Below, one piece after another: positions 4,711-50,054 of a DNA stretch of 64,000 bases (its first letter is position 1; each line of letters begins with the position of its first letter). Source of the stretch: Desulfobacterales bacterium (lineage in GTDB: Bacteria > Desulfobacterota > Desulfobacteria > Desulfobacterales > JAHEIW01); NCBI GenBank assembly GCA_030066985.1, contig JASJAN010000016.1, forward strand, positions 1 through 64,000, written 5' to 3'. The notes beneath the pieces were generated by a model. That model had not been told where the DNA came from and searched no databases. It worked only from the letters and a program-made list of their open reading frames with translations. A program made the position numbers and the translations under genes.

Positions 4711-4893
4711 AGAAGACCCCCACCAAGATGCCGTGTTGGCAGGTCTTTGAACCTAAGTTCAAAGTGGGTGCCTCATAATTTCATCAGGCTTTTCTGAACC
4801 AGCAGAACATGCACACCGAAACCAGCGAAGGCTCCCAGAAGATAGCTGTTGGGTCAAAGAATAACTCCCAATCACGGACACGGTAGGGGCAAA
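4711..4893 (-). ncRNA. ssrS: 6S RNA
   Basis: 6S RNA binds the housekeeping sigma-70 RNA polymerase and mimics an open promoter. The 3' half contains the hallmark TTGAAC-TTAG-GTTCAA hairpin followed by GGCATCTTGGTGGGG, closely matching the end of E. coli 6S RNA. The 5' end, CCCCTACC, pairs with GGTGGGGG at the 3' end to close the terminal stem. The length (about 183 nt) and the position just downstream of zapA match the classical bacterial arrangement. The end points are judged from the closing stem and may be off by several nt. The flanking 4359-4710 and 4894-5045 segments show no gene. A hairpin-forming stretch at about 4932-4974 separates zapA from it. Confidence 0.88.
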
Positions 4894-5709: not shown

Positions 5710-6450
5710 TCACCCGTTTTTCATTGCTCGCTCAACATTTTTTAACTCACTAATCGTGTTGATACCGGTAACCTCCACAGGATCGTCACCGGTCACAACC
5801 CCCATTTGCTTTTGACTATAATAGGCAATTTTAATAATATCGGTAAGATACATTTCGCCCTGCGCATTGTCTGCCTTAATTTTAGGCAACGCTTCTGATA
5901 AAATTTGCTTTTTGACGCAAAAAATGCCCGTATTAATGAGCCCGATGCGTTTTTGCTCATCGCTGGCATCGGATTCCTCCACAATGGCCTGCAGGTTGCC
6001 GCCCGCATCCAATACCATGCGGCCATAGCCGGTCGGATCCGGCAGTTTGACCGCCAAAACGGTAATATCCCTATTTTCAGCCAGATGAGCTGCGACCAGC
6101 GTCTGGATGGTGTGCGCCTCAATCAGGGGCACATCACCGCACAGAATCGCCACCTCCTCACAGGCATCCGGTATGTAAGGCAGGGCGCACAGGACCGCAT
6201 GCCCGGTGCCAAGTTGCTCATTCTGGTAGACAAATTGGAAAGCGCCCTGTTTTGACACCGTTTGGCGAACTTCGTCGGCCTGATGGCCCACCACCAGGAT
6301 CACGTTGTTACCGGCAACCTTTTGGGCCGTTTCAACAACGTAATGGATCATCGGTTTGCCACAAACTTCATGTAAGACCTTGGCTTTGTTTGATTTCATG
6401 CGGGTCCCCAAACCCGCAGCCAGTATGACAACTGCAATATTTGAATTCAT
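5710..6450 (-). CDS. glmU: NTP transferase, GlmU N-terminal domain only
   Basis: UDP-N-acetylglucosamine pyrophosphorylase domain. It shows the nucleotide-binding signature AAGLGTRMKS at the N-terminus, GTGHAV and the metal-binding GDVPL. Full GlmU (about 450 aa) also carries a left-handed beta-helix acetyltransferase. This protein stops after about 246 aa, so that half is absent, and nothing after the stop encodes it. An upstream in-frame ATG at 6516 would read through the atp operon terminator, so the start at MNSN is preferred even though its ribosome-binding site is weak. The position after atpC recalls E. coli atpC-glmU. A GlmS-like gene lies at 45296. Confidence 0.85.
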   Translation of the reverse strand: MNSNIAVVILAAGLGTRMKSNKAKVLHEVCGKPMIHYVVETAQKVAGNNVILVVGHQADEVRQTVSKQGAFQFVYQNEQLGTGHAVLCALPYIPDACEEVAILCGDVPLIEAHTIQTLVAAHLAENRDITVLAVKLPDPTGYGRMVLDAGGNLQAIVEESDASDEQKRIGLINTGIFCVKKQILSEALPKIKADNAQGEMYLTDIIKIAYYSQKQMGVVTGDDPVEVTGINTISELKNVERAMKNG

Positions 6451-6475
6451 ATCTATCAGTTTAACTGTCAAAAGG

Positions 6476-6513
6476 AAAAAGGGCAAACCCATTTTTCTGG
6501 GTTGCCCTTTTTT
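6476..6513 (-). terminator. Rho-independent terminator of the atp operon
   Basis: AAGGGCAACCCA / TGGGTTTGCCCTT stem with one bulge, a short A-rich loop and a T-rich run on the minus strand. It lies about 55 bp past the atpC stop codon. The stem also ends in T on the plus strand and could work in both directions. Confidence 0.85.
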
Positions 6514-6567
6514 CAAGTAATCAAATGAACAAAGATAAGATTCAGCTGCGACACATATTGGCCGCCC

Positions 6568-45295: not shown

Positions 45296-48200
45296 ATGCA
45301 TATGAAACCACTCCCTTTGATCCTGTTTGTCAGGCGGTTGCGATTCATCTTAAATTTTCTCCATCGCAGCATTGAATGGCTGCGCTTGCTTTTGGCGGCC
45401 GATGTTTATGTCGGGAAATATGTCGAGCGCGTTCCTGACGGCGCCATCGTGTTTTTTCCCTGTCGCCAAACCTTGCTGTGCTGCGGCATCGCCGGCATTG
45501 TTGCATTTAAAAACAAGAAGCCGACATCCGGCAAGTTGGACCTGCAGGCGCTTGAAGATGTGATTGCGCAAATTGAAGCCAAGGGCTTTGAATCCTGTTC
45601 ACAGGCGAATCATTGGCTTGACGCCTATCTGGGCGGCAGCGGAAGAATCGCAGCGCTGGGGCAAGGCGTTCAGGGGTTAAAGACCGCTGCTCAGTTTTTT
45701 TTGATTTTTTCCGACGAAAAGGCCCAGCATCAACTTCAGCAGATGGCTGCACGTCTGGCGGATCTTGCGGCTTCTGAAAGCGAGCTGCTGGCTGCACAAA
45801 TGGGTCATCTTTCCGCTGAGCAGGTTAATCACATGACCCGCGCGATTGAAGAAGTTAAGGACATTCACTGGCGTCTTGAAAATGATATTCTGGCCAATAC
45901 CGAGAAGATTCGCCGGCTTTTGATCCACAGCCCGCAGAAGCCTTCACGGGAAAGTGTTGTCCTGCTAAAAAAGATCAATGCAGTATTGAACAGCATCGAT
46001 CGTTTGGAGGTCAGGGGTAGAGATTCAGCGGGCATTTCGATCATGTTTATGTTTGAAGCGGCGGATTTTCAAAAAGGTCAAGCTGCCCTCGAAAAAGCCG
46101 GTCAGCTGGCCCAGTTTAAAGAACGCTGCGATCCAGACCCACTGGTCAATGGTGGCATCAACTGCCAGCCCTCCAAACAGGCCGATGGTAAGGATCAAAT
46201 CGCTGTTGCGGTAACGTATAAAATCGCGCTTGAAATCGGAAGCCTCGGCGACAATGTGGCTTTTTTACGGCAGCAAATTGCCAATGATGCCGTATTTCAG
46301 ATTTTGGCGACGATTCCTGCTGCTTGGGATACGGTTTCAGCTCACACCCGGTGGGCTTCAGTGGGCGCCATCACTGAAGCAAACTGCCACCCTGTCGACA
46401 ATCACACGAGCGGCGCATCCGTCGCAAAATGCGGTATCATTCAAACCTGTCTGAATGGCGATATCGATAATTTTCAGCAGTTAAAAGCCGAATTGGAAGG
46501 TGCCGATACCCCAATCCACAGCGACATCACCACCGACACCAAGATTATTCCGCTTAAAATTCAGCGGTACTTTCAGCAGGGTCATGCGATCGAGGAAGCT
46601 TTTCGTTTAGCCGTCAACGATTTCGAAGGATCGCATGCCATCTCCATGCATACAGATCTGGCGCCCGGAAAATTGTTCCTGGCGCAGCGCGGCAGCGGAC
46701 AAGCCATTTTTATCGGAATTGCCGAGGAACATTATATGGCCAGCTCCGAGGTTTACGGCTTTGTGGAAGAAACGCCTCAATACCTTAAACTGGATGGTGA
46801 GAAAACGATCACCGGCAAGCAGGGCCGCACCCGGGGACAAATCTTTATTTTAGACCAGATAAGCAGCGGGGGATTGGATGGCATTCAGGCCCAGTTTTAT
46901 GATGGCACACCGCTGGCGCTCGATGAGAAAGACATAAAATATACCGAGATAACCACCCGGGATATCGATCGCCAGCAGTATCCGCATTATTTTCTAAAAG
47001 AAATTGCAGAATCGCCGGTATCGGTTGATAAAACACTACAGAACCGATGGAAATTCAAAGAAGACGATAAAACGCAATATACGATTGAATTGGATGAGAG
47101 CATTATCCCGCAATCCCTGCAGGAAGCGCTGGCAACAGACCAGATAAAGCGGATCTTTTTTATCGGGCAGGGCACCGCCGGGGTAGCGGCCTTGGTCTGT
47201 GCCAACATCCTGAATCATTATCTGGATAACCCCGCCATACAAATCGGTGCCCTCAAAGCATCAGAATTCAGCGGTTTCCAATTAAATGAGACTGACAGCA
47301 AAGATGCCATGAGGGATGCGCTGGTGGTGGCCATCAGCCAATCCGGCACCACCACTGACACCAATCGTACCGTGGACATGGTCAAAGAGCGGGGCGCTTA
47401 CACCCTGGCGATTGTCAATCGTCGGGATTCAGATATCACATTTAAAGTCAATGGGGTCATGTACACCAGCAGTGGCCGCGATATTGAAATGTCGGTGGCT
47501 TCCACCAAAGCCTTTTATTCTCAGATTGTCGCCGGTGCTGTTTTGGGTCTGTTTATCGCACGTCTAAAAAAGTGCCGCGATGATGCATTCGTAGACGCAG
47601 AAACCCGGCGGCTGCTGGACTTGCCGCAGCACATGCGCAAAGTACTCGCCATGCGAGAGACCATCCGGCAATCCGCCGAGAAGCTGGCCGTGACCAAAAC
47701 TTACTGGGCGGCAGTCGGCAGCGGACCCAACAAAGCCGCTGCCGATGAAATTCGGATTAAACTCAGTGAGCTTTGTTATAAGACAATATCTTCAGATTAT
47801 GTTGAAGACAAAAAACACATCGATCTGTCTTCAGAGCCGTTGATCATCGTGTGTGCTGCCGGTTCAAGAAGCACTGTAATCGGTGACATCATCAAAGATA
47901 CGGCCATATTCAAAGCCCATAAAGCAACGCCGGTTGTCATTGCCAATCAAGGTGAGGATCGCTTTAATCCTTATGCTGCCGATGTGTTTCAGGTGCCGGC
48001 TGTCGAAGAGCATCTGGCGCCGATCTTAAACACCCTGGTGGGCCATATCTGGGGCTATTATGCTGCGCTATCCATCAATGAAGGCTCGCGGTTTTTATAT
48101 CGATTCCAAAAAGACCTGCAAGACAGCATCCAGACGCATACGGCAGCGGGCTTAGATATCTATGAAATCATTCTCGAAAAATCATTTCAGGAAAAAGTAG

Positions 48201-49075
48201 CCCATTTTGATAAAGCTTTCAGGGCCCAAAAGGCCGAACATCAGTTTCCGACGGCCGTAGGCTCCGATGTGACCTCGGATCTAACCCTGCTGCTCAAATA
48301 TTTATCCGGCCGTTTACCGGTGTCGGATTTTGAACTAGATTTCAGCCAAAAGGGCACTGCCGCCAATATGCTCAATTCCATATTCAACTGCCTGGGGCAC
48401 GCCATCAATTATCTGGCGCGTCCGGTGGATGCCATCAAACACCAGGCCAAAACAGTCACCGTTGGAACCAGCCGGATCAGCGAGCGCCTGGAAGGTATTT
48501 TATTCGATGCTCTTGAAGCGGAAAAACTCGGCGTCGCTCAACTCACGGCCAGCAATATTATTGTCCTGAAAAATCTGCAGGAAATTATCCACGATATCAG
48601 CGGATCGATTCTCTATCGAATTAACGGCTTAAACCTATTGGGACAGCCAGTCAAAGAAACCACTATTCGCGTGGTCGCCAAACGCGGCGCTGCCGAACAG
48701 ATTTCCTCACGGGTTGAATCCGACGCCCAATTGAAAGGAACCAAGCGTATTATTGTCAGACAGGGCAACGTTTATATTGGCAAAGGCCTTAAAGATGAGC
48801 GCAGCATCGCCGTTATTCCGGTCCTCTCCAATTCAGCTTCTGCTCCGAATATCATTGAAAATCTGCTTTTGCTGCATATAGTATTTAAAGAAAACATTCC
48901 GCTGAGTTCTAAAATTAAAGCATTGGGCGGCAAATATGAACACATTCAGAATATTGTGCAGGAAAACAGCGTGGTTTGGGACGATCGGCTGCTTGACGGT
49001 ATTGCGGTTGAGGAACTATTCGGAAGGTCCGCCGAGAAGGTGGGAGAGTTTATTATTTCCCTGGCCAGCACGTAG
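45296..49075 (+). CDS. Giant GlmS-like amidotransferase/phosphosugar isomerase
   Basis: 1259 aa, against about 610 for GlmS. An N-terminal 62-residue leader precedes CGIAGIVAF (Cys63 equals the N-terminal nucleophile of GlmS). Residues 75-225 are a helical insertion that interrupts the glutaminase domain. RGRDSAG (240-246), HTRW (350-353), LNG (387-389) and TTDT (412-415) resume it. SIS domain 1 (about 612-760) has SQSGTTTDT and VASTKAF. SIS domain 2 (about 795-935) keeps the Lys/Glu helix and a His at about 841. Residues 940-1259 match nothing I know. It could supply glucosamine-6-phosphate, but the leader requires processing or an alternative start (LLC codons are TTG-CTG-TGC). No ribosome-binding site is evident at either. 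Confidence 0.85.
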   Translation: MHMKPLPLILFVRRLRFILNFLHRSIEWLRLLLAADVYVGKYVERVPDGAIVFFPCRQTLLCCGIAGIVAFKNKKPTSGKLDLQALEDVIAQIEAKGFESCSQANHWLDAYLGGSGRIAALGQGVQGLKTAAQFFLIFSDEKAQHQLQQMAARLADLAASESELLAAQMGHLSAEQVNHMTRAIEEVKDIHWRLENDILANTEKIRRLLIHSPQKPSRESVVLLKKINAVLNSIDRLEVRGRDSAGISIMFMFEAADFQKGQAALEKAGQLAQFKERCDPDPLVNGGINCQPSKQADGKDQIAVAVTYKIALEIGSLGDNVAFLRQQIANDAVFQILATIPAAWDTVSAHTRWASVGAITEANCHPVDNHTSGASVAKCGIIQTCLNGDIDNFQQLKAELEGADTPIHSDITTDTKIIPLKIQRYFQQGHAIEEAFRLAVNDFEGSHAISMHTDLAPGKLFLAQRGSGQAIFIGIAEEHYMASSEVYGFVEETPQYLKLDGEKTITGKQGRTRGQIFILDQISSGGLDGIQAQFYDGTPLALDEKDIKYTEITTRDIDRQQYPHYFLKEIAESPVSVDKTLQNRWKFKEDDKTQYTIELDESIIPQSLQEALATDQIKRIFFIGQGTAGVAALVCANILNHYLDNPAIQIGALKASEFSGFQLNETDSKDAMRDALVVAISQSGTTTDTNRTVDMVKERGAYTLAIVNRRDSDITFKVNGVMYTSSGRDIEMSVASTKAFYSQIVAGAVLGLFIARLKKCRDDAFVDAETRRLLDLPQHMRKVLAMRETIRQSAEKLAVTKTYWAAVGSGPNKAAADEIRIKLSELCYKTISSDYVEDKKHIDLSSEPLIIVCAAGSRSTVIGDIIKDTAIFKAHKATPVVIANQGEDRFNPYAADVFQVPAVEEHLAPILNTLVGHIWGYYAALSINEGSRFLYRFQKDLQDSIQTHTAAGLDIYEIILEKSFQEKVAHFDKAFRAQKAEHQFPTAVGSDVTSDLTLLLKYLSGRLPVSDFELDFSQKGTAANMLNSIFNCLGHAINYLARPVDAIKHQAKTVTVGTSRISERLEGILFDALEAEKLGVAQLTASNIIVLKNLQEIIHDISGSILYRINGLNLLGQPVKETTIRVVAKRGAAEQISSRVESDAQLKGTKRIIVRQGNVYIGKGLKDERSIAVIPVLSNSASAPNIIENLLLLHIVFKENIPLSSKIKALGGKYEHIQNIVQENSVVWDDRLLDGIAVEELFGRSAEKVGEFIISLAST

Positions 49076-49400: not shown

Positions 49401-50054
49401 ATGCGCACCCGTCTATTCCAGAGGTCCTTGATGGCCCCATTTTTCATTGCCTTGCTATTGGCGACGCAGCAGCTGCCGGCCGAGGAATCGGAGCAGGCGG
49501 CCCTGCTCGAGGGTAAAGCGTTGATTCAGAAGCTGCCGTCACAACAAAAAGACGGCAGTGGCAGCGGATATGAATTGATTTACGTCGTTGACGCGCCGCT
49601 TGAGGTTTACTGGAAGTTTAAAACAGATTTCGAAAACGATTATATCGTCAGCAATAAATTTATTATCTCCCACCGACTGGTTAGCCAGCATGGAAATGTG
49701 GTAGTGACCGAGGATATTTTCAGCGAGGATTTATATACCCACAAGCCCAAGGCCAAATTTCTATGGCAAACGACCCTCTTCCTCCCCCAATATCGTCTGG
49801 ATTTTGTGCTTTTAAATCCGGCGGAATGCGGCCAAAAATTCCATTACGGCTCCATTCGGCTTGAGACATTTGGCGTTTCAAGCCAGAAAACCAAAATTAC
49901 CCAGAGAGCCTATTTCGATTTCTTTGGAGTATCTTTTTGGGTAAATTACCCCTGGTACGGCGGCATGAAACACTTTTTAAGATACACTGCCCGCTGGGAA
50001 CAAGACACCGTTTTGCGCTTAAAACCAAAATATATTCAAAAAAGTGCACAATAA
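49401..50054 (+). CDS. Exported SRPBCC/START-like protein
   Basis: 217 aa with an N-terminal signal peptide (about residues 9-27, ending near LPAEE). The mature part has the pattern of a START/polyketide-cyclase helix-grip fold, with VVDAPLEVYWKFKTDFEN near the start of the domain and alternating strands after it. Such domains bind hydrophobic ligands, and a periplasmic lipid- or hydrocarbon-binding role is possible. The family is inferred from pattern only. No operon partner is evident. Confidence 0.65.
   Translation: MRTRLFQRSLMAPFFIALLLATQQLPAEESEQAALLEGKALIQKLPSQQKDGSGSGYELIYVVDAPLEVYWKFKTDFENDYIVSNKFIISHRLVSQHGNVVVTEDIFSEDLYTHKPKAKFLWQTTLFLPQYRLDFVLLNPAECGQKFHYGSIRLETFGVSSQKTKITQRAYFDFFGVSFWVNYPWYGGMKHFLRYTARWEQDTVLRLKPKYIQKSAQ

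Follow-up and report, generated by a model that had tools for sequence, protein, structure and literature searches.

Why should a bacterium carry a GlmS of twice the ordinary size? GlmS feeds the synthesis of cell-envelope amino sugars; it serves as a target for antimicrobials, and its size hardly varies. Canonical GlmS and GFAT proteins measure 589-716 residues (PMC9272926), whereas the gene studied here has 1259 codons and no internal stop. It lies on the forward strand of the window, as we call the whole stretch of 64,000 nucleotides that was analysed. The canonical proteins (TIGR01135; E. coli 1jxa, human GFAT-1 6r4e) share with it the order of a class II glutaminase and a two-SIS isomerase. 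They start at Cys1 and end at AKSVTVE, whereas the giant form begins with a leader of 62 residues, contains two insertions (~150 and ~110 residues) and carries an extension of 203 residues (Table 1).

The explanation that we consider probable is a clade-specific GlmS which has replaced the canonical enzyme, which removal of the leader activates and which the C-terminal domain probably regulates, the last two steps being ones that we infer.

Architecture and catalytic residues

Pfam recognised both halves of the 1259-residue protein (SIS, E 1e-16; GATase_6, E 4e-8), and its best sequence matches in the PDB are GlmS chains (E 5e-24). The initial annotation, which had read a GlmS-like protein with a split glutaminase and SIS domains, was correct on these points. 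The NCBIfam glmS models align over residues 345-926 (E about 1e-75 to 1e-79) but miss their curated cut-offs, with 253.6 vs 418 bits for TIGR01135 and 268.6 vs 381 bits for NF001484. Because the long form scores below these cut-offs, automated annotation could wrongly call the genomes that carry it glmS-negative.

The ORF is real, intact and conserved. Public genome contigs contain 15 loci that encode the same protein, all of them labelled as Desulfobacterales, Desulfobacteraceae or kin, or Deltaproteobacteria; 13 of these cover almost the whole protein, with 58-82% identity. Near full-length homologues in independent assemblies rule out an assembly artefact. An intein or a frameshifted fusion is ruled out as well, as 42 members from many families keep both insertions and the extension in frame. 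No paper on a long form of GlmS was found in the open-access literature.

The gene metG is located upstream of the long GlmS gene, inside the fetched stretch, at 12 of the 15 public loci. On the 3' side, positions 49401-50054 (+) of the window encode a protein of 217 residues that appears to have a signal peptide and is found in the same place in L003, L004 and L005. Scanning the window with Rfam at gathering thresholds gave no glmS ribozyme upstream of the gene. A partial 16S rRNA lies at the window edge (1-441, -) and a 6S RNA at 4713-4892 (-).

The roles of Cys1, Glu488, His504 and Lys603 in GlmS have been described (PMC9272926). Equivalences to GlmS residues were read from alignments, and 42 long forms were compared. 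Invariant in all 42 are the equivalents of Cys1, Arg73, Trp74, Gly78, Asn98, Gly99, Asp123, Thr302, Gln348, Ser349, Thr352, Val399, Ser401, Lys485, Glu488, His504, Ala602 and Lys603. Of these, Cys1, Arg73, Trp74, Asn98, Gly99 and Asp123 mark the class II glutaminase. Lys485, Glu488, His504 and Lys603, of the two-SIS isomerase, correspond to K822, E825, H841 and K1052, and the likeness to canonical GlmS extends to the AKxVTV tail. The catalytic Cys that the initial annotation had placed at residue 63 is among the invariant residues. Three positions differ: Ser303 is Ala and His77 is Val, Met or Asn in the 42 long forms, and Ser347 is Ser or Thr. The Ser303 and His77 replacements and the scores below the cut-offs count against the GlmS reading. 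The predicted isomerase fold matches GlmS isomerase structures with Z 28.6, within a range of about 27-29.

A helical insertion of about 150 residues had been noted between the nucleophile strand and the RGRDSAG motif. It was confirmed at about residues 75-227 and is predicted to be helical, with pLDDT mostly 80-94; it has no convincing relative and matches no family. No other part of the mature protein evolves as fast as this insertion 1, as might be expected if its role were peripheral.

Table 1. Features of the giant GlmS gene, in window coordinates.
Feature	Position	Strand	Basis
glmS-long, giant GlmS gene	45296..49075	+	1259 codons; Pfam/NCBIfam matches and homologues
Leader, putative propeptide, residues 1-62 (1-35 basic, amphipathic)	45296..45481	+	kept in 36/42 homologues; dN/dS; charge and moment
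Hairpin-like leader motif VYVGKYVERVPDGAIVFFP, residues 37-55	45404..45460	+	constant spacing before catalytic Cys; resembles motif at 48767-48820
Catalytic Cys63 (= Cys1 of GlmS)	45482..45484	+	invariant in 42 homologues; Met-Cys start in six
Insertion 1, residues 75-227, helical, matches no known family	45518..45976	+	structure prediction; no convincing relative
Rest of glutaminase and linker, residues 228-554; lengthened stretch before HTRWA	45977..46957	+	Pfam, alignment, profile comparison
Two-SIS isomerase domain, residues 555-929, end equivalent to E. coli residue 593	46958..48082	+	structural match to GlmS isomerases, Z about 26-29; Pfam/NCBIfam matches
Insertion 3 (helical), residues 930-1040, lying between SIS2 and catalytic tail	48083..48415	+	alignment, structure prediction, profile comparison
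Catalytic C-tail, residues 1041-1056, with Lys1052 (= Lys603)	48416..48463	+	invariant RP.D.I.HQAKTVTVG in 42 homologues; profile match to canonical tail
C-terminal extension, residues 1057-1259, PAS/GAF-like predicted fold	48464..49072	+	pLDDT 81, pTM 0.77; L-GDH180 PAS region Z 9.8
Motif NVYIGKGLKDERSIAVIP in extension, like leader motif	48767..48820	+	hhalign score 23.3 vs best 17.8 in 500 column shuffles

The C-terminal region

GlmS models and structures end at about residue 925-929 of the giant protein (E. coli residue 588-593). The canonical tail DVDQPRNLAKSVTV recurs further on, at residues 1043-1056, as PVDAIKHQAKTVTV, and the profile comparison scores 23.5 vs at most 19.8 in 200 column shuffles. 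The catalytic C-tail of E. coli, PRNLAKSVTVE, has its equivalent at 1041-1056, and from this alignment Lys603 of GlmS is Lys1052, in the 'AKTVTV' tail. Therefore residues 930-1040 are an insertion and the 203 residues 1057-1259 an extension. About 320 extra residues had been reported after the isomerase (about 330 counted from SIS2). That stretch is real but is not all extra, as it includes the catalytic tail between the insertion and the extension.

Residues 1041-1259 modelled alone gave pLDDT 81 and pTM 0.77. The predicted topology is a helix, two long strands, helices, three strands and helices, which fits PAS/GAF folds (a helix, an antiparallel sheet with intervening helices, and C-terminal helices). 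The top VIA-align match of the extension is residues 174-361 of L-GDH180, the 180-kDa glutamate dehydrogenase of M. smegmatis (7jsr), with 165 residues aligned at Z 9.8. Next come GAF, PAS and other sensor chains at Z about 6, and the best Foldseek match has E 0.008. The N-terminal segment of L-GDH180 contains a PAS-type domain that is a proposed metabolic sensor. Since this segment was built by ab initio modelling into data of low resolution (PMC8175468), its Z overstates how firm the match is. Both proteins are metabolic enzymes enlarged by sensor-like domains. L-GDH180 differs in having an unrelated catalytic core, ACT domains too, and its PAS region on the N-terminal side.

At the sequence level, Pfam matches with E up to 10, collected for 13 members, include no PAS or GAF model. 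A profile of 20 GAF domains from the own genome gave a short local match in the expected place of the extension (E 0.002, prob 13%). As the sequence models miss PAS and GAF and the L-GDH180 match is less firm, we keep to the label PAS/GAF-like for the predicted fold. Weak Pfam matches to DegQ, Focadhesin and ssDNA_DBD, seen in few members and with no consistent family, were judged to be chance. The C-terminal region had been called unknown, with beta-rich stretches left unassigned; it contains the catalytic Lys tail of GlmS, and its last ~200 residues have a predicted PAS/GAF-like fold.

The C-terminal domain is probably a built-in allosteric sensor. Because it is joined directly to the catalytic tail, ligand binding or dimerisation could gate the isomerase site. 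PAS and GAF folds often act solely as dimerisation modules. It could be that the giant protein is a processed and active GlmS in which the extra domains serve structure alone (a new oligomer, a channel cover or a folding aid), the PAS/GAF-like domain being a scaffold or dimerisation module that senses no ligand. The fast evolution of insertion 1 agrees with this. We nevertheless regard it as unlikely, since the extension, with many invariant positions and dN/dS about 0.08-0.09, is almost as well conserved as the catalytic parts and is attached straight to the tail.

Further observations count against a regulated, processed GlmS. The model of the mature full-length protein is poor (pLDDT 64), too poor to place Lys1052 relative to Glu825 and His841 or to judge the domain packing. 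In human GFAT-1, C-terminal tags interfere with activity (PMC7000685); a free C-terminus thus seems to matter there, yet 203 residues follow the tail in the giant GlmS. The giant form combines a leader of a kind not known in GlmS with a sensor-like domain attached directly to the catalytic tail, and with it allosteric control can be tested directly in a bacterial GlmS.

The leader and the probable mature N-terminus

As the catalytic Cys is preceded by 62 residues, the initial annotation had proposed either removal of a propeptide or an internal start. The leader is a conserved protein segment in 36 of the 42 long forms, where the motif [VIL][YF][FIV]GK....VP..SIV.FP stands at near-constant spacing before the Cys. 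Its core has dN/dS about 0.14-0.15 among three close relatives, with synonymous sites near saturation. In the other six members a Met codon lies directly before the Cys and the leader is absent. In two of these, L016 and L076, the long GlmS gene starts within a few bases of the upstream gene. On the tree the presence of a leader or of Met-Cys needs at least three changes.

Because the leader is conserved in 36 members and six start Met-Cys, the mature N-terminus is most likely Cys63, and these patterns point to removal of the leader. The need for processing is thereby supported for the window gene. An internal start just before Cys63 is unlikely in it: TGC (Cys62) stands in front of Cys63, Met codons are lacking between residues 4 and 62, and the leader is conserved as protein. 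Such a start, with Met directly before Cys, does apply to the six Met-Cys members. A precursor would thus be made with the 62-residue leader, and removal, probably autocatalytic or by a protease, would expose the Cys63 nucleophile.

PurF of Bacillus and GltB are class II amidotransferases of the Ntn type whose propeptides are removed to expose Cys1; these propeptides are shorter than the leader of the giant GlmS. We know of no GlmS with a propeptide, and none was found in the open-access literature.

If the leader were retained instead, the glutaminase half would be inactive and the isomerase would use free ammonia. The residue before Cys63 is variable among homologues, which would suit this reading, but the listed glutaminase residues are invariant in the 42 members, bar the His77 position, dN/dS of about 0.07-0.11 indicates strong purifying selection on the glutaminase region, and six members start Met-Cys, so a retained leader appears very improbable.

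The leader motif resembles a motif of the extension, NVYIGKG..D.RSI.VIP (hhalign 23.3 vs a best of 17.8 in 500 column shuffles), and the first ~35 leader residues are basic in all 32 members scored and mostly amphipathic by charge and moment. A speculative extension of leader removal, to which we give a low probability, is that the uncut leader keeps the enzyme inactive, its hairpin motif mimicking that of the extension, or holds it at the membrane via the basic amphipathic helix. Once the leader is cut, the sensor would gate the catalytic Lys tail. If true, a GlmS under proteolytic activation and with a fused sensor would be fixed across the whole order.

Probable replacement of canonical GlmS

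A check for a normal glmS elsewhere had been suggested and was run on the own genome (5.07 Mb, 97.8% complete). The GlmS-model search found no canonical GlmS in it; besides the long form, it returned two frames (484 and 582 aa) that match in the glutaminase half only, as PurF and asparagine synthetase would. The only other SIS match lies inside an RpiR-type regulator. The long form is thus the sole GlmS-type gene. No recognisable NagB was found in the genome, where the single Glucosamine_iso-family match reads by inspection as 6-phosphogluconolactonase.

GlmM is present with a score over the cut-off. GlmU looks split in this genome: a uridyltransferase half stands alone at window 5710-6567 (-), and a GlmU-like acetyltransferase half (428-aa frame) adjoins glmM on another contig. 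GlmU below the cut-off is also common among phylum genomes with canonical GlmS.

Whole-genome sampling covered one phylum evenly, in two samples of 297 and 294 genomes that differ by three. Canonical GlmS scores over the cut-off in 234 of the 297, and the profile of the long-form C-terminal region matches 36 of the 294. Compared genome by genome, 35 of these 36 are without canonical GlmS and only G184 has both. Fisher's exact test gives p about 6e-28 for this exclusion, a value that ignores relatedness and takes about 233 of the 258 other genomes as canonical. Better evidence of replacement is the GTDB family f44, where three genomes (G034, G209, G294) carry the canonical form alone, three others (G071, G104, G133) the long form alone, and none has both; the two forms look interchangeable. 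Since the tree places the G071 copy among those of the window's order and the G104 copy with family f42, canonical GlmS appears to have been replaced by the long form at least twice, by transfer.

The long form seems to be the usual GlmS of the window's order, in nearly all sampled members. Throughout this order, and in part of several other families, cells would run on a GlmS of twice the size, apparently able to replace the ordinary gene. Because of this replacement pattern and the lack of another GlmS in the genome, the long form probably converts glutamine and fructose-6-P to glucosamine-6-P and glutamate in place of canonical GlmS. Ammonia would pass to an isomerase site of the standard two-SIS type, which Lys1052, on the tail after the helical insertion, would complete.

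That the enzyme instead differs in substrate or product, using another sugar phosphate or depending on ammonia, with glucosamine-6-P coming from elsewhere, is the least credible reading: the changes at Ser303 and Ser347 in the phosphate/sugar site, the replaced His77 and the low model scores would suit it, but all isomerase catalytic residues are kept, no canonical GlmS and no recognisable NagB were found in the genome, and the distribution is near-exclusive, with apparent swaps inside f44.

Relatives of the C-terminal region were not found in phages, plasmids or viral contigs, and the pattern scan that covered all species detects close relatives but no distant ones. The long form of G184 (L082, G184:C29:18200-23100) groups in the tree inside the window's order, a placement suggesting that it was transferred recently. 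Neither kind of GlmS was found in G186 (same order, family f7; 97% complete), where the best glmS-model match has E 1e-37 and the long C-terminal region has no match; either an assembly gap or another amino-sugar source would account for this. In G036 (contig C41), an intact long GlmS gene is followed about 7 kb downstream by a second, short piece of the C-terminal domain (L079:11347-11808), which appears to have decayed.
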